Shown here: positions 56,186-62,051 of the stretch, piece after piece
Position numbering within the stretch: position 1 is the first letter of the stretch
Layout of the letters: each line of letters begins with the position of its first letter
DNA from: Croceicoccus mobilis
Lineage (GTDB): Bacteria; Pseudomonadota; Alphaproteobacteria; Sphingomonadales; Sphingomonadaceae
DNA: 64,000 bases
Assembly: GCF_001661965.1 (NCBI RefSeq)
Contig: NZ_LYWZ01000020.1
Location: 248,001-312,000, forward strand
Direction of reading: 5' to 3'
The notes under the pieces: generated by a model
What the model saw: the letters and a program-made list of their open reading frames with translations, nothing else
What the model was told of the DNA's origin: nothing
Database searches by the model: none
Made by a program: the position numbers and the translations under genes

Positions 56186-57679
56186 ATGGCGGAAGGGTCC
56201 TCGCACCTCGAGCCGGGTGAGAGTGAACCCGCCAAGGCTGGCCAGTCCGAGCAAACGGTCGGGGGCGTGCAGCCGGGCGAATCTGCGCCAAAGGGGCCGA
56301 TCCGGCCGAAGATAAACCTTGGCGCGGGCCATACAGGTTCGCTCGCCCGGCGCATGATGCTGATCGCTGTGGGGTGGATCGCGGTGCTGCTGCTGGGCGG
56401 GGGCATTGCGCTCAACCAGACGCTCACCGGTCTCGTCACCCGCAATTTCGACGAACAGCTCGACTACATGCTCACCGCCATGGTCGCCTCGGTCGAGGTG
56501 GGGCAGGATGGCGACGTGTATTTCTCAAGGCCATTGGGCGACCAGCGTTTCCTTGAACCCAATAGCGGTCTTTATTGGCAGATCACCGGCAAGGGGCATG
56601 AGGATTTTCCCTCGCGCTCTTTGTGGGATCGCACGCTGACCGTGCGCGAATCCGATCACATGGAGCCGCAGGTCTATGACAGCGGGCAGTTTTCGGGAGA
56701 GCCGCTGCGCGTTATCCAGCGCCCCATCTTCCTGCCGGGCAGCGATACGCAATGGTGGTTCGTCGTCGCCGCCAGCCGCGAAGAGCTGGATGTGCAGCTG
56801 TCGCGCATCCGGCGCATCCTCTTGTTCTCCTTTCTGGCTCTGGGCGTCGGGCTGATCGCCATGGCGCTGGCGCAGACATGGCTGGGCCTGTCGCCACTTC
56901 GCGGCATTCGCCGCGCGATCCAGCGTATCCGCATGACCGGCGAAACCCGTGTGACGGAACCGCTGCCGCTGGAGGTCCAGCCGATGGTGGAGGAGCTCAA
57001 CATGCTGCTCGCGCACTCCGAAAAACAGGCCGAGGAAGCGCGCGCGCACGCAGGCAATCTGGCACATGCATTGAAAACGCCGCTCACCGTCCTCAACAAT
57101 GCCGCGCATGACAAGGCGCCGGGCCTGCCCGAAATGGTGGAGCGCGAGGTCGCGGCGATGCGGCGGCAGGTCGATCACCACCTTGCCCGCGCGCGCGCCC
57201 TGGGTCGCCGCGCGGCGGGCCTGTCGCGCGCCGACATGCGCGAAAGCGCCGATGCGGTGGAACGGGCGGTTTCGCGCCTTTACGCCCATGTCCGTTTCGA
57301 CCTGTCCGGCCCTTCGGCTGGATCGCCGCGCGCGATTGTCGCCATCGAGCGTCAGGATCTCGACGAGATCCTTGGCAATCTGATCGAGAACGCGGCGAAA
57401 TATGGCGGCGGGAGTGTTTTCGTGACGCTGGACGCGATGCCGGGTTCGCAGCTGTGCGAAATCTGGGTGGAGGATGACGGCGCAGGCATCCCGGCCAAGG
57501 ATCGCGAACAGCTTTTCGCTCGCGGCGCGCGGCTCGATACCAACAAGCCGGGCACGGGCCTTGGCCTCGCCATCGTGCGCGACGTGGTGGAGATCTATGG
57601 CGGCAAGGTCGAACTGGACGAAAGCGAAGACCTTGGCGGCCTGCTCGTCAAGCTTTCCCTACCGCGGGCGGCAGCCTAG
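56186..57679 (+). CDS. sensor histidine kinase
   Basis: The product is 497 residues. A ~50-residue acidic, Gly/Pro-rich cytoplasmic leader precedes membrane helix 1 (about 57-78). A periplasmic sensor (to about 205), helix 2 (about 210-235), HAMP, and the phospho-His in NLAHALKTPLTVLNN follow. The ATPase has NLIENAAKYG, VEDDGAGIP and GTGLGLAIV. PhoQ-like in plan. Partner of the preceding regulator; overlaps sufE tail-to-tail by 4 bases. Confidence 0.94.
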   Translation: MAEGSSHLEPGESEPAKAGQSEQTVGGVQPGESAPKGPIRPKINLGAGHTGSLARRMMLIAVGWIAVLLLGGGIALNQTLTGLVTRNFDEQLDYMLTAMVASVEVGQDGDVYFSRPLGDQRFLEPNSGLYWQITGKGHEDFPSRSLWDRTLTVRESDHMEPQVYDSGQFSGEPLRVIQRPIFLPGSDTQWWFVVAASREELDVQLSRIRRILLFSFLALGVGLIAMALAQTWLGLSPLRGIRRAIQRIRMTGETRVTEPLPLEVQPMVEELNMLLAHSEKQAEEARAHAGNLAHALKTPLTVLNNAAHDKAPGLPEMVEREVAAMRRQVDHHLARARALGRRAAGLSRADMRESADAVERAVSRLYAHVRFDLSGPSAGSPRAIVAIERQDLDEILGNLIENAAKYGGGSVFVTLDAMPGSQLCEIWVEDDGAGIPAKDREQLFARGARLDTNKPGTGLGLAIVRDVVEIYGGKVELDESEDLGGLLVKLSLPRAAA

Positions 57680-58092
57680 CCCTCAGCTGCGATGCGGCCT
57701 GCGGTTTCGCGGATCAGCGCGATCATGTTGGGCACCCCCTGCGTCCGGTTGGACGACAGCTGGTTCCTGAGGTCGAAGGGTTCGAGCAGCGCCGCAATGT
57801 CGGTCTCTGCCACCTGTGCGGCTGGCTTGTCCTGCACCGCGGCAATGACCAGCGCGACGATCCCCTTGGTGATGGCGGCATTGCTGTCGGCAAGGAAATG
57901 CAGCTTGTCGGTTTCTTCCACCCGCGTCGGATAGACCCAGACGGCGGCGGAGCATCCCTTTACCTGCGTCGCCTCGGTCTTCAATGCGGCGGGCATGGGT
58001 TCCAGCTCTCGGCCCAGCTCTATCAGCAGGCGATAGCGTTCGTCCCCTTCAAGGAACTCATATTCTTCGGCGATGTCGTCAAGGCTGCGCAT
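57676..58092 (-). CDS. SufE-family cysteine desulphurase activator
   Basis: The product is 138 residues. The active Cys lies in TQVKGCSAAVWV (Cys47), with LRNQLSSNRTQGVPNMIALI near the C-terminus. SufE accepts sulphur from SufS during Fe-S cluster assembly. It lies 44 bases after the last PspB-like gene on the same strand, with a hairpin between them, so co-transcription with the Psp operon is possible but unproven. Confidence 0.92.
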   Translation of the reverse strand: MRSLDDIAEEYEFLEGDERYRLLIELGRELEPMPAALKTEATQVKGCSAAVWVYPTRVEETDKLHFLADSNAAITKGIVALVIAAVQDKPAAQVAETDIAALLEPFDLRNQLSSNRTQGVPNMIALIRETAGRIAAEG

Positions 58093-58102
58093 GGTGCAGC
58101 GC

Positions 58103-58127
58103 GCTAGCGGGGCATGGGGCCGCTAGC
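58103..58127 (-). promoter_or_regulatory. hairpin in the sufE leader
   Basis: Perfect 8-base arms GCTAGCGG (58103-58110) and CCGCTAGC (58120-58127), 9-base loop, located 11 bases upstream of the sufE ATG. No T-run follows, so it is more likely an attenuator or RNA-stabilising stem than a terminator. Confidence 0.4.
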
Positions 58128-58136
58128 AAGGGGGGA

Positions 58137-58385
58137 TCAGAGATCGACCCCGCTGGCGATGGCCTCAAGGCGGCGGATGCGTTCTTTCAGATCCGCGATC
58201 TCGATGCGGGCAGCGGCGGGTGCCACGCCCTTGTCTTCGGGTTCGAGGGCGGGGCGGGCAGTGCCCTGTTCCAGCTCACGCGTTTTCAGCGCCAGCCAGC
58301 CCTGCCAGCCGTAAAGCAGGGCCCCTGTCACGACCAAAAGCGCAATAAACGAAAACAGGGGCAGGGCAGCGATTTCGAAGCTCAT
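58137..58385 (-). CDS. PspB-like small membrane protein (third extra copy)
   Basis: The product is 82 residues. One N-terminal membrane helix (about 9-28), an Ala/Pro/Glu linker, and a C-terminal helix IADLKERIRRLEAIASGVDL that parallels the PspB end (RIxxLExI). Shortest and most divergent of the set. It follows its neighbour by 11 bases. Confidence 0.65.
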   Translation of the reverse strand: MSFEIAALPLFSFIALLVVTGALLYGWQGWLALKTRELEQGTARPALEPEDKGVAPAAARIEIADLKERIRRLEAIASGVDL

Positions 58386-58396
58386 CTCTCAGCTCC

Positions 58397-58660
58397 TCAC
58401 TTGTCGCGCAGCAGCTCGATCTCGTCGGCGAGACCCAGCTTCTGCCGTTCGTCATAGGCGATGCGTTCCAGCACCTTCACCCGGTCCTTCAGCTCGGCAA
58501 CCTCGGCGCGCAGGCGTTCTTCCTCGGCGGTGTCGCGGCGGGCAACGGGTCTGCCTTCGTCATCGGTGGCGAAACCCACGCTGGCATTATGGCGCGAGCG
58601 CATGAACTGCGTGACCGAAACGATCAGCACGATCAGGACTATGGCGCTCCACAAACTCAT
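58397..58660 (-). CDS. PspB-like small membrane protein (second extra copy)
   Basis: The product is 87 residues. Membrane helix (about 4-20), a polar linker, and an acidic coiled coil RLRAEVAELKDRVKVLERIA with the VLERI motif followed by DEIELLRDK. Layout as in PspB but longer. Separated by 13 bases from the next copy. Confidence 0.7.
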   Translation of the reverse strand: MSLWSAIVLIVLIVSVTQFMRSRHNASVGFATDDEGRPVARRDTAEEERLRAEVAELKDRVKVLERIAYDERQKLGLADEIELLRDK

Positions 58661-58673
58661 TTCGATCTACTCC

Positions 58674-58964
58674 TCAAACCTCGTGACGCGGGCTGGTGAC
58701 GGGCGGGTTCAGCCGTTTGTCGCTGTCCTCGTCGCGCAGCGCCTCGATCTGGCGGGCAAGGTCATAGCCCTCTGCCGTCACAATGCGCTCCAGCACGCGA
58801 ACGCGCTCTTCCAGCTGCGACGTGTGCTGCGCATATTGCGCGGCCTTTTCAGCGGTGGCGCCCACCTGCATTTCGGCAAGTTTCGACTGGTGCTTGGTCC
58901 AGACGATGAAGCTGACCATTACAAACGGTGCGGCAACCGCAACCAGTCCGATGAGATCACCCAT
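58674..58964 (-). CDS. PspB-like small membrane protein (first extra copy)
   Basis: The product is 96 residues. Membrane helix (about 4-22), then a coiled coil with QLEERVRVLERIVTAEGYDL and RQIEALRDE. The VLERI-x-TAE block aligns with PspB's ALESI-x-DAE. It lies 27 bases after pspC in the same operon. Confidence 0.75.
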   Translation of the reverse strand: MGDLIGLVAVAAPFVMVSFIVWTKHQSKLAEMQVGATAEKAAQYAQHTSQLEERVRVLERIVTAEGYDLARQIEALRDEDSDKRLNPPVTSPRHEV

Positions 58965-58991
58965 GATATACAGTCCTCCTAAACTATTGTC

Positions 58992-59369
58992 TCAGCGCAG
59001 CTTTTCGATTTCGGCCGAAAGCTGGCGATTGGACGAGACGTAATATTCCTCGACATGGGCCAGGCGGCGATCGATGTCGCGGAACTTGGCCTTCACCTCG
59101 CGCGCCGAACGGGCCGGCGACTGGCGCACGCCCTGCCAGAACTTCTGCTGTTCCTGCGTGTCGGCATAAAGATGGGCGGGCTTCTTCGACGCCATCATGC
59201 CAAGCGCGAAATAGATGATCAGCGGCCAGCCCATCATCAACGTGGTGATGACAAAGCCGAGGCGGATCCAGATCGCGTCGATCCCGGTGTAGTCGGACAG
59301 TCCGGCGCTGACGCCCAGGAACTTCCCGTTGACCTTGTCGCGGTAAAAGCGGGTGCGTTCGGTAACCAT
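58992..59369 (-). CDS. pspC: phage shock protein PspC
   Basis: The product is 125 residues. The PspC domain starts RFYRDKVNGKFLGVSAGLSDYTGID and includes the membrane helix WIRLGFVITTLMMGWPLIIYF. A charged C-terminal helical tail (about 75-125) follows. PspC senses envelope damage and, with PspB, pulls PspA off PspF. ATGA overlap with pspB. Confidence 0.93.
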   Translation of the reverse strand: MVTERTRFYRDKVNGKFLGVSAGLSDYTGIDAIWIRLGFVITTLMMGWPLIIYFALGMMASKKPAHLYADTQEQQKFWQGVRQSPARSAREVKAKFRDIDRRLAHVEEYYVSSNRQLSAEIEKLR

Positions 59370-59656
59370 CAGCGGGTCCTTTCCTTCATCATGCGGTCAA
59401 GCTCGGCGAGCTTGGCGTTGTCGGCTTCCTGGTCCGCGATCAGGCGGGGCTTCTGAAAGTCGGTGTTCTCGGAGGCGACGAGCCTCTCGACTGTGTCCAT
59501 GCGGTCATCAAGGCGCTTGGCGAGGTTGTAGAGTTCCTCGAGCATGGCCTCGTCTCCCTGCGTCAGCGAAGGCGTGGTCTTCCACTTGGTGACATAGTGA
59601 AAGAGCATCCACGGCAGGCCAATGAAAATGCAAACGATGACGATGATGTCTTCCAC
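59369..59656 (-). CDS. pspB: phage shock protein PspB
   Basis: The product is 95 residues. MEDIIVIVCIFIGLPWMLFH membrane helix, HYVTKWK at its cytoplasmic edge, and the helix RLDDRMDTVERLVASENTDF. The GTG start at 59656 is supported by AAGGAGG nine bases upstream, inside the end of pspA. About 20 residues longer than E. coli PspB. Confidence 0.9.
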   Translation of the reverse strand: MEDIIVIVCIFIGLPWMLFHYVTKWKTTPSLTQGDEAMLEELYNLAKRLDDRMDTVERLVASENTDFQKPRLIADQEADNAKLAELDRMMKERTR

Positions 59657-59660
59657 GGCC

Positions 59661-60356
59661 TCAATCCTCCTTGCCCGTGCTGCCCTGCGCATCGCCCTTC
59701 AGGGCGCGCTTCATGGCTTCCAGTTCCTCGTCCACCTTGTCGGGGGCGGACAACCCTTCGATCTGCTGGGCCAGGCTGGGCTCGCCCTTCATCGCCATGC
59801 CAAGCGCATCGGCGTGGCCCTCGGCGTAATCCACCCGGCGTTCGAGCATTTCGAAACGGGCCAGCGCCTCGTCGACGCGTTCGGTGGTCATCAGCTTCCT
59901 GAGGCGCACGCGGTTTTCCGCGCTTTCGAGGCGGGCCGCGATCATCGACTGGCGGCTCCTTGCCTCGCGCAGGCGCTGCTGCAGCTTGGCGATGTCTTCC
60001 TCGTTCGCGCGCAGGCTTTGCTCAAGGACATCCATTTCCTCAGCCAGTTGCGCGGCCAGATCGGTCGCCTTGCGCTTTTCCATCAGCGCGGCGCGGGCCA
60101 GATCCTCGCGGTCCTTCGACAGGGCGAGCTGCGCCTTGTCGGCCCAGTCGGCCTGCAGCCGTTCCAGCTTGACCGCGTGGCGCTGCATTTCCTTTTGATC
60201 GGCGATGGTACGGGCAGCGCCTGCGCGCACTTCCACCAGCGTCTCTTCCATCTCGACGATGATCATGCGGATCATCTTTTCCGGATCGTCCGCCTTTTCG
60301 ATCATGTCCGAAAAATTCGCGGCGATGATGTCACGGGTTCGATTGAATATTCCCAT
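59661..60356 (-). CDS. pspA: phage shock protein PspA
   Basis: The product is 231 residues. It starts MGIFNRTRDIIAANFSDMIE, the amphipathic membrane-binding helix, then PEKMIRMIIVEMEETLVEVR and a long coiled coil; it ends in a disordered tail. PspA binds damaged membrane and restrains PspF. ATG 60356 has GGAG 9 bases upstream and gives the canonical length. The frame stays open 86 codons further, to ATG 60614. Confidence 0.93.
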   Translation of the reverse strand: MGIFNRTRDIIAANFSDMIEKADDPEKMIRMIIVEMEETLVEVRAGAARTIADQKEMQRHAVKLERLQADWADKAQLALSKDREDLARAALMEKRKATDLAAQLAEEMDVLEQSLRANEEDIAKLQQRLREARSRQSMIAARLESAENRVRLRKLMTTERVDEALARFEMLERRVDYAEGHADALGMAMKGEPSLAQQIEGLSAPDKVDEELEAMKRALKGDAQGSTGKED

Positions 60357-60614
60357 CAATTGGGCTCCGTTCTGCCTGAGGCTGTTGCCGCCGCGAAAGC
60401 GGATCGGGTCTTCCTCCCGTCCCTGATCGCTGCGTGAATTATTGTCCCGCGATTGACGCAGCCGCGCAACCTCCCGGTCAAAGCGCGAGCCGCGGGTCCG
60501 GCCCGCGTCCTTTTCGCTTTCTGCCCAGGGCGTGTCGCGCAGGGCGCGAATGTCGTCGGCCCTGTTTTGGGTCGGGGTCGGCGTCTCGGGGGAAAGATCG
60601 TTCTTGTCATCCAT
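60357..60614 (-). other. in-frame upstream extension of pspA (86 codons)
   Basis: An open frame continuous with pspA begins at ATG 60614 with AGAGGA just upstream. It encodes a highly charged, probably disordered segment (ADDIRALRDTPWAESEKD, RFRGGNSLRQNGAQL). If translated it would bury PspA's N-terminal helix. Otherwise it is a leader. Both starts have good ribosome sites. Confidence 0.5.
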
Positions 60615-60644: not shown

Positions 60645-60827
60645 TCAGGCCAACACGTATGCGGTGATCGGTGCCGCGATCCGCGGGCTGCACACCGGCG
60701 AAAACCCCGAGATCTCGCCGGAGATGGCGTAGACGCTCAACGTCAGCATGGTCACGGTGGCAATCACGCTGACCATGGCTGGGCTCGCGGCCTTGGCGAT
60801 CAGTCTGGTTGCTGGTTCGAAGTTCAT
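60645..60827 (-). CDS. small predicted membrane protein, first in the Psp operon
   Basis: The product is 60 residues: a polar start (MNFEPATRLIAKAASPA), one hydrophobic segment (about 17-37: VSVIATVTMLTLSVYAISG) and a Pro-rich second half. It begins about 25 bases downstream of the predicted sigma-54 transcription start, with GGGGAC before the ATG. I do not recognise a family. The position suggests a PspA/B/C-type partner or a leader peptide. Confidence 0.55.
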   Translation of the reverse strand: MNFEPATRLIAKAASPAMVSVIATVTMLTLSVYAISGEISGFSPVCSPRIAAPITAYVLA

Positions 60828-60862: not shown

Positions 60863-60878
60863 AGCAGGAAGCGTGCCA
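60863..60878 (-). promoter_or_regulatory. sigma-54 promoter of the Psp operon
   Basis: Reading on the minus strand from 60878: TGGCAC-GCTTC-CTGCT, with GG and GC exactly ten bases apart (the -24/-12 signature). Transcription would start near 60852, 25 bases before the 60-residue ORF. PspF, encoded divergently, is the expected activator. Confidence 0.85.
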
Positions 60879-60897: not shown

Positions 60898-60910
60898 TAT
60901 CAATGACTTG
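60898..60910. promoter_or_regulatory. IHF-type site in the psp control region
   Basis: TATCAATGACTTG matches the IHF consensus WATCAANNNNTTR at every position. It sits about 46-58 bases upstream of the predicted start, between the sigma-54 promoter and the upstream repeat, where DNA bending is expected. Confidence 0.65.
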
Positions 60911-60938
60911 GCAGTTTTTGGCCGGAATTGCGTGCGAA

Positions 60939-60973
60939 ATAATTGCCAAGAGTTGGGATTTTACGCTAATTAT
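60939..60973. promoter_or_regulatory. inverted repeat ATAATT...AATTAT, candidate PspF enhancer
   Basis: Arms at 60939-60944 and 60968-60973, centred near -104 of the Psp operon start, in the range of PspF enhancers in E. coli. It also lies in the pspF leader, so PspF could autoregulate. Assignment is inference from position. Confidence 0.45.
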
Positions 60974-60992
60974 CGGCGCATGGCCAAGTCGC

Positions 60993-62051
60993 ATGGATAG
61001 AGGCAAGCAATTCGTCGGGCAATCGCCCGCCATTCTCGACGCGGTCGAGAGGGCGTCGCGCGCGGCCGCCCTGTCGCGTCCCGTTCTTGTTATCGGCGAG
61101 CGCGGCACCGGCAAAGAGCTGATCGCCGAACGACTTCACCACCTGTCCGACCGCTGGGGTGAGCCGCTCGTCGTCATGAACTGCGCCGCATTGCCCGAGA
61201 CCTTGATCGAGGCGGAACTGTTCGGTCACGAGGCGGGCGCGTTCACCGGCGCGTCAAAGGCGCGGGCAGGGCGGTTCGAAGAGGCCGATGGCGGCACGCT
61301 CTTCCTCGACGAACTCGGCACGCTGTCGATGGCGGCGCAGGAACGCCTGCTGCGCGCGGTCGAATATGGCGAAGTCACGCGCATCGGCGCATCCCGTCCG
61401 GTGCAGGTCGATGTCCGCATCGTGGCCGCCACCAATGAAGATCTGCCCGCCATGGCCGAGCACGGCGAATTTCGCGCCGACCTCCTCGACCGGCTGAGCT
61501 TCGAGGTCATCACCCTTCCGCCCCTGCGCGCGCGTGAGGGGGACATCATGGTGCTGGCCGATTTCTTCGCCCGCCGCATGGCGGTGGAACTGATGTGGGA
61601 GGAATGGCCCGGTTTCGCCGAAAGCGTGATGGACCAGCTGGAGGCCTATCCATGGCCCGGCAATGTTCGCGAACTGCGGAATGTGATCGAGCGCGCCGTC
61701 TATCGCTGGGACGACTGGAGCCGCCCGGTGGGCGAAGTCGTGTTCGATCCCTTTGCCTCACCCTGGGCGCCCAAAAGCAGTCATCGGGCGAAACCGGCAG
61801 AAGCTGCGGCTGGCACGCCGGCGCCTGTCGAAATTCGACCGATGTTCGATTTCGCTGCCGTTACCGACCTGCGCGCCGCGGTTGACGGGCATGAACGCGC
61901 CATCGTCGAAAGCGCCTTGGATCGCCACCGCTGGAACCAGCGCAAGGCGGCGGAGGCGCTGGGCCTCAGCTATGACCAGATCCGCCATTGCATCAAGAAG
62001 CACGCCCTGAACGAAGGAGCGGAAGAACGCGGCGGTGGAAAGGCGGCCTGA
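60993..62051 (+). CDS. pspF: psp operon transcriptional activator PspF (sigma-54 enhancer-binding protein)
   Basis: The product is 352 residues. A AAA+ domain begins almost at the N-terminus, with no receiver domain, as in E. coli PspF. Walker A GERGTGKE, the GAFTGA loop in [11 protein letters not shown], Walker [11 protein letters not shown] and R-fingers are present. A Fis-type helix-turn-helix ([19 protein letters not shown]) is at the C-terminus. ATG 60993 matches the E. coli start; the longer frame (60903) overlaps the control region. Confidence 0.94.

Follow-up and report, generated by a model that had tools for sequence, protein, structure and literature searches.

A class-ordered array of small membrane proteins with PspB/PspC-like tails behind pspC in Sphingomonadaceae

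The 64 000-nucleotide stretch of Croceicoccus mobilis DNA analysed here (contig NZ_LYWZ01000020.1, positions 248,001 to 312,000; hereafter the window) holds a complete phage-shock-protein (Psp) locus, which lies on the minus strand except for the divergent pspF. An original prediction, made from the letters of the window, had described four PspB in one phage-shock operon, i.e. pspB itself and three further small genes. These three additional open reading frames (ORFs), here called the array, are present on the minus strand at 58674–58964, 58397–58660 and 58137–58385 and encode 96, 87 and 82 residues; they do stand with the psp genes, but pspC sits between pspB and them. Gaps of 27, 13 and 11 bases separate pspC, gene 1, gene 2 and gene 3, in agreement with the predicted contiguity and 11–27 base spacing. 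Hydropathy, lysine/arginine counts and C-terminal cores likewise agree with the predicted common plan, as each protein has a single N-terminal hydrophobic stretch with lysine and arginine only after it, as well as an R-x4-E core (LEERVRVLERI, LKDRVKVLERI and LKERIRRLEAI in genes 1, 2 and 3, respectively). The locus is composed of the following features:

60903..62051, plus strand: pspF, the sigma-54 activator, divergent (TIGR02974, 480 bits, over cut-off)
60863..60878, minus strand: putative sigma-54-type promoter TGGCACGCTTCCTGCT (loose -24/-12 pattern)
60645..60827, minus strand: small ORF of 60 residues, first in the operon, with a single hydrophobic stretch
59661..60356, minus strand: pspA core (TIGR02977, 259.7 bits)
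59369..59656, minus strand: pspB, GTG start (TIGR02976, 83.1 bits; PF06667, 71.4 bits)
58992..59369, minus strand: pspC (TIGR02978, 118.2 bits, over cut-off)
58995..59069, minus strand: C-terminal tail of PspC in an R-x4-E-x9-L-x3-I-x2-L register (from the sequence)
58674..58964, minus strand: array gene 1, class I, 96 residues, with membrane helix, AEKAAQYA and tail
58731..58814, minus strand: tail of array gene 1 (from alignments)
58397..58660, minus strand: array gene 2, class IV, 87 residues
58400..58492, minus strand: tail of array gene 2, its turn two residues longer (from an alignment)
58137..58385, minus strand: array gene 3, class V, 82 residues, with membrane helix, GWQGWLALK and ARIEIADLKERIRRLEAIASGVDL
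57676..58092, minus strand: sufE-like gene, the downstream boundary, outside the array (PF02657, 118.1 bits)

Judged by the PspB cut-offs of Pfam (PF06667, 25.6 bits) and NCBIfam (TIGR02976, 51.7 bits), pspB alone of the four genes exceeds the threshold. What stands of the notion of four PspB is therefore a PspB-like plan and topology signal together with some profile similarity, while genes 1–3 all remain below the cut-offs. When the whole genome was searched with PF06667, pspB scored over the cut-off, followed by gene 1 (E 0.025), an unrelated frame (E 0.15) and gene 2 (E 8.5). The strongest single link to PspB is given by an array gene of another genome, G184, with 32.6 bits (E 2.4e-7) against TIGR02976, for which the cut-off is 51.7 bits. 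With the C-terminal part of the PspC model TIGR02978 (positions 76–121), gene 1 gives a further match at E=7e-4, below the cut-off, and no match to the PspC domain itself (PF04024) was found in genes 1–3. Homology of genes 1–3 to PspD, PspG or LapA was considered and rejected, as none was over the cut-off (gene 3 matched LapA at E=0.29); PspD and PspG models did not occur among the matches of genes 1–3 in Pfam and NCBIfam with E up to 10, searches in which the HMMER filters discard most matches above 0.1. In the 54 loci examined, i.e. the window and 53 fetched loci, 35 of them from the family of the window and 19 from other families in the order, the topology signal of an N-terminal helix with the C-terminus inside was found in 148 of 148 array proteins, the three of the window included, and in 53 of 54 PspB, as called from hydropathy and lysine/arginine counts, with a choice of start codons that partly favoured hydrophobic N-termini. 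Genes 1–3 form a family of their own, that of membrane-anchored proteins with a PspB/PspC tail, and judging from their sequences the array would consist of lineage-specific single-pass membrane proteins, in which an anchor helix is joined to a ‘leucine-zipper’ tail as in PspB/PspC.

It is this tail which connects the array to the established Psp proteins. PspC ends RRLAHVEEYYVSSNRQLSAEIEKLR and gene 1 holds ERVRVLERIVTAEGYDLARQIEALR, both in a common and gapless R-x4-E-x9-L-x3-I-x2-L register, of which PspB retains the first half (RMDTVERLV). The second half of the array tail, present in genes 1 and 2, is PspC-like, and the tail of gene 3 ends after the core, as class V proteins are without this second half. 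For genes 1 and 2 the predicted C-terminal alignment with PspB holds, but it covers the tail alone (25–32 columns), and the PspC C-terminus aligns as well. For profile–profile comparison by hhalign the array proteins were divided into 26 of class I, 39 of class II, 50 remaining proteins (with gene 2) and 33 of class V, sets that differ somewhat from the final classes. The first three sets gave 98.8–99.7 % among themselves, 86–92 % against PspB (class I 90.3 %, remaining set 92.1 %) and 78–94 % against PspC tails, compared with 7–13 % against the PspA control (class I 7.3 %, remaining set 9.2 %). The suggested profile similarity to PspB was thus found in three of the four sets but not in class V, which reached 0.3 % against PspB, 0.5 % against PspC tails, 11 % against class II, 30 % against class I and 94.7 % against the set with gene 2; the class of gene 3 is tied to the array only through the set holding gene 2, and not to PspB directly. 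The identity of the 16-residue cores of the array classes is 0.28–0.38 to PspB, with class V at 0.28, and 0.17–0.30 to PspC, as compared with 0.09 for shuffled cores, which places the cores nearer to PspB than to PspC. The tail resembles the C-terminus of PspC as much as PspB.

Array genes alone (all but L053_G019_2) served to build a tail model, which was then run on 7872 further six-frame ORFs from the 54 loci, among them 54 PspC, 54 PspB and 55 PspA. The 25 best-scoring ORFs comprised 13 PspC, 11 PspB and 1 PspA, and the best 100 comprised 45 PspB, 39 PspC, 15 PspA and a single other ORF, at scores that were modest (best 16.3 bits). Over the 1494 scoring ORFs, the medians were 8.75 bits for PspC, 6.7 for PspB, 2.7 for PspA and -2.6 for all others; with reversed sequences they fell to -0.7, -1.3, -2.2 and -2.6, respectively, and the overall top score was 10.2 bits, with place 25 at 2.6 bits. 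One might argue that the tail is a generic amphipathic coiled coil and that unrelated small proteins stand beside pspC by chance, given that the tails are short, charged and helical, that they weakly match bZIP and a crescentin rod too, and that gene 3 is without a PspB match. Reversed PspB and PspC also still rank high, at low scores, but forward scores lie well over reversed ones; the scores of the long coiled coil PspA are far under those of PspB and PspC with the tail model and in hhalign, gene 1 and PspC share a gapless register, and the synteny with pspC is conserved, all of which makes such a coincidence very improbable. Sequence searches in solved structures gave no relative for PspC (two matches, best E 2.8) or for PspB (no match), and the AlphaFold model of PspC was of low information (predicted template modelling score, pTM, 0.29) and was not used as evidence.

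Conservation beside pspC, as foreseen in the original prediction, was found throughout the family of the window, which we take to be Sphingomonadaceae in the GTDB sense and which, treated as one unit, spans the Erythrobacteraceae and Sphingomonadaceae of NCBI. Array genes follow pspC in all 35 psp loci examined of this family, and a 36th family genome (G030) has neither pspC nor a match to gene 1. The set of exactly three extra genes holds for the window but not for the family, where one, two, three, four, five, six, seven and eight array genes occur in 1, 2, 6, 15, 5, 4, 1 and 1 loci, respectively (mean 4.2, total 147). In the other families of the order, an array gene lies beside pspC in 2 of 19 loci, both from one family and with one gene each, and in the eight loci read from these families an array-like match lies outside the psp operon; in G048 and G058 the outside copy follows an rpoD-like gene (read from the start of the protein) and a second copy stands beside pspC. 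Across 60 genomes, that of the window included, gene 1 has a match (orthologue or paralogue, E<=0.01) in 45 and pspC is present in 54. The wider scans scored at most 22–27 candidates per genome, and their counts are lower bounds: in the order at least 180 of 197 genomes match the array model, i.e. 136 of 136 in the family of the window (at least two matches in 132) and 44 of 61 in other families (a single match in 37), and in the class at least 6 of 241 match, four of these in the family of the window, with PspB (E<=1e-6) in at least 29 of 241. Named array loci come from Croceicoccus, Novosphingobium, Erythrobacter, Porphyrobacter, Qipengyuania, Parerythrobacter, Sphingopyxis, Sphingorhabdus and others. 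Being selected for likeness to class I and limited to the best 80 of 391, these loci are biased in copy number; they hold two (3 loci), three (6), four (25), five (17), six (27) or seven (2) array genes.

Comparable arrangements were seen elsewhere. Two genomes from another family of the class, G205 and G285, have two small membrane-protein genes after pspC (L099 4337–4814 and L100 4062–4552), one with a PspC-like and one with a PspB-like tail, i.e. the same plan in another lineage, and G212, from another order of the same class, has two adjacent tail genes (L097 4226–4709) about 80 kb from its psp locus L101. A second, short PspC-domain gene follows pspC in G048 and G058, precedes it in G016, G033 and G043, and lies between pspB and a tail gene in G266; the coordinates of these short genes are L078 4521–4677, L086 4429–4666, L050 3598–3952, L066 3729–3942 and L074 3489–3735, all five in oriented locus copies, as well as L098 4091–4334.

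The array genes fall into classes with a largely fixed order, i.e. I, IIa, IIb, others, IV and V in most family loci, with exceptions such as G014, G016 and G018. Class V comes last in 33 of the 35 family loci and never at another position, being absent from two, one of which (G035) lies on a contig ending there. The array of the window reads I-IV-V, and among 13 genus mates ten have I-IIb-IV-V and three I-IV-V. The juxtamembrane motifs are AEKAAQYA in class I, HGYpledeW in IIa, GYPLEnsWGk in IIb, and GWxGWLxLK together with RIelADLkER in V; since the classes were set by regular expressions, and I, IIa and IIb by the juxtamembrane motif itself, motif conservation within these three is to some extent circular. 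This does not apply to the GWxGWLxLK of class V, a class defined by its C-terminal end. Class IV is a loose bin and 13 of 149 array proteins remained unclassified; eight class V genes were added after inspection, and L054_G020_2, whose N-terminus is misframed, enters neither the class sets nor the topology count. Between classes, identity is 0.25–0.67 in the core 16-mers (shuffled 0.09) and 0.21–0.40 in the N-terminal 45 residues. The array genes are under purifying selection, with median ratios of non-synonymous to synonymous substitution rates (dN/dS) in the genus of 0.25 for class I, 0.21 for IIb, 0.31 for IV and 0.26 for V, compared with 0.28 for pspC, at median dS values of 0.7–1.1, near saturation, and with pairs outside 0.05–2 dropped.

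This class structure bears on the possibility that the array proteins are effectors, namely membrane anchors of PspA which, abundant after induction, hold its rods or rings at several sites or lipid environments. According to PMC3068692, an E. coli PspC zipper mutant does not bind PspA and psp is not fully induced; a tail similar to that zipper, the position of the array genes close behind pspC and their many copies, which suit scaffolding, would be in keeping with such a role. Yet the largely fixed class order and the class-specific juxtamembrane parts suggest distinct jobs and not dose, and class V does not have the second half of the tail, so that we consider anchoring of PspA rather unlikely to be the function of the array.

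With regard to expression, the median gap in the arrays is 14 bases, with 134 of 140 gaps not exceeding 60 bases and 41 of 140 overlapping, where the starts are the choice of the analyst. A sigma-54-like site precedes pspA in 45 of 54 loci, as found by a loose pattern without shuffled control. The same pattern was found in none of 37 arrays, which is little informative, as about one occurrence would be expected by chance from letter frequency. The array and pspABC would share one transcript and are most likely made together under the sigma-54/PspF promoter. Gene calls stem from a home-made codon-score caller, by which parts of L108, L136 and L153 were read in an incorrect frame and pspC of L121 was overlooked.

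For the ORF of 60 residues at 60645..60827, no Pfam or NCBIfam family was over the cut-off; comparable small ORFs occupy the same place in other loci, in some cases with an AYAA-like stretch, and in L120, L124 and L131 the head ORF overlaps the extended pspA start by four bases. In the window, the pspA frame is open upstream to 60614, which adds an N-terminal extension of 86 residues (60357–60614) before MGIFNRTRDI. The extension contains SRFDREVARLR, which is resembled by SRLEAEVEKLR and SRLDTEVEQLR in other loci. ATG-started extensions of at least 15 residues occur in 25 of 48 PspA frames, some of them probably spurious.

Further evidence comes from loci in which pspB is missing. Among the best 80 of 391 named loci, 12, all from Novosphingobium, contain pspC and the array by model scan but neither pspB nor class V (L127 and L157 are cut upstream and thus uninformative on pspB). 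All 12 retain pspF and pspA, as well as pspC by model, and none has the class V ending. The stops of pspA and pspC are 399–587 bases apart in the 11 measurable pspB-less loci and 671–682 bases apart in the four measurable related loci with pspB, and therefore pspB does not fit in the former. Seven of the 12 were read gene by gene, four of them cleanly (L120, L121, L124 and L131, with pspC uncalled in L121), and in the other three the caller took the wrong frame over pspA. Genome-wide, TIGR02976 found nothing over its cut-off in any of the 12 genomes, with E 3e-24 in a related pspB-containing control, and the best residual match lay within the array in five and in a long unrelated frame in seven. 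In a PspA tree of 75 proteins (5 of the 80 loci yielded none; midpoint root, some long branches elsewhere), the 12 pspB-less loci are one side of a branch with support 100/99 and a long stem of 0.58. Considering that they form one group, PspB and class V were probably lost in a single event, while pspF, pspA, pspC and the array were kept. In six of these loci (L108, L120, L124, L131, L136 and L153), PspC looks, by eye, as though a longer basic stretch preceded its tail, and together with the long PspA stem this gives the impression that both had readjusted. It is tempting to speculate that the array may stand in for PspB in these Novosphingobium strains; the loss is what would be expected if the array can replace PspB, yet it is no proof. 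The same loci speak to the idea that the array proteins are dampers or decoys, whose tails compete with PspB and PspC for PspA or with one another and thereby limit induction. A common tail without PspC domain would suit a decoy, and extra copies made together with the operon would give negative feedback, but the survival of the array after pspB loss leaves a PspB decoy nothing to compete with and a decoy needs no variable copy number in distinct classes, which leaves this idea with little likelihood.

Which cues PspB and PspC sense has long occupied the Psp field. We lean towards regarding the array proteins as PspB-like adaptors that differ in input but share one output to PspC/PspA, while noting that this reading overlaps with those of PspA anchors and dampers. 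Each class would read its own membrane or partner cue via its membrane helix and juxtamembrane part, and all classes would report through the common tail to the PspC/PspA switch, the output of which could either help to free PspF from PspA or dock PspA at the damaged membrane. By analogy with E. coli, the array tails could contact PspA or the tails of other Psp proteins, with PspC or PspA as possible binding partners, and the membrane parts could choose partners. That several inputs exist, as the original prediction had proposed, and that different classes would sense different cues, is what we infer, and we favour it because the juxtamembrane motifs differ between classes and pspB-less genomes keep the array.

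Several results weigh against these adaptors. In PF06667, gene 1 scores 17.6 bits (E=0.0039) and gene 2 scores 11.3 bits, in TIGR02976 they score 18.8 and 12.2 bits (E=0.17), all under the respective cut-offs, and gene 3 matches neither model. PspB profiles see little of the array family, since PF06667 at E<=0.01 picks up only 3 of 19 array proteins. The alignment between PspB and the array is restricted to the tail, and the juxtamembrane HYxTxWK stretch of the window PspB is, by eye, absent from genes 1–3 and from the class consensuses. In the reversed control, PspB and PspC fill 13 of the 25 top places (the best of these at 7.4 bits), and therefore part of the tail likeness is composition; this takes some weight from the tail evidence, but as forward sequences score well above reversed ones, our estimate of the odds stays the same. 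PspB and PspC tails compared directly by hhalign gave 2.3 %, i.e. their similarity was not detected, and it is in this sense that the array bridges the two. The AlphaFold model of gene 1, one low-information helix (predicted local distance difference test, pLDDT, 71; pTM 0.28), was not used. In E. coli, according to PMC3068692, PspB and PspC make contact through the membrane part and the PspB zipper is dispensable for it; the PspC zipper was assigned to a region that is putatively periplasmic, and two topologies were proposed. A shared tail alone therefore predicts neither a common partner nor a side of the membrane. Finally, the loss of pspB, which looks like a single event, may mean loss of its function and not replacement; class V went too.

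A more far-reaching version of the adaptor reading, in which a single-copy gene outside the operon gave rise to a modular multi-input Psp system with up to eight ordered adaptors, interchangeable membrane/juxtamembrane inputs, a common tail directed at PspA/PspC and the ability to replace PspB altogether, as in one Novosphingobium clade, is put forward here only tentatively. With its single tail and differing membrane ends, the natural paralogue series, together with the pspB-less clade, makes it possible to ask directly which part responds to which stress and if PspB can be replaced.

The existence of PspB duplicates is already known, as Ravi et al. (2024; PMC11237479) state in one clause that they occur in the psp operon, and the same paper notes that PspC may carry a divergent C-terminal PspB. 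In the portions considered, its main text contains no array, class, order, copy number or pspB loss, and neither Erythrobacter nor Sphingo occurs as a word anywhere in the main text; AOL22920.1 is presumably an Erythrobacter protein. As far as the sections considered of the following papers go, PMC9239133 mentions PspA and PspC paralogues but not PspB paralogues, PMC11186258 reports changes of PspA, PspB and PspC in Zymomonas under stress and mentions no extra genes, and PMC5443232 and PMC9241875 mention psp in passing only. Apart from that clause of Ravi et al., no account of the ordered multi-class array, its range, the orphan relatives or the pspB loss was found among the titles listed by searches of open-access literature.

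Compared with known systems, the array is like PspB in its operon, size, single N-terminal helix with a C-in topology signal and R-x4-E tail core. It differs from PspB in that the genes of the window are below the cut-offs, the membrane and juxtamembrane parts are different, one to eight paralogues occur in classes, and the tails of genes 1 and 2 continue into a second stretch, as in PspC. The position of gene 1 is like that of PspD, which follows pspC in the E. coli pspABCDE operon (PMC9239133), whereas no PspD or PspG model is among the matches of genes 1–3 with E up to 10. With the PspC zipper the array has in common the register of the gene 1 tail and its match to the C-terminal part of TIGR02978, but in contrast to PspC the array proteins are without a PspC domain and have one membrane helix only.

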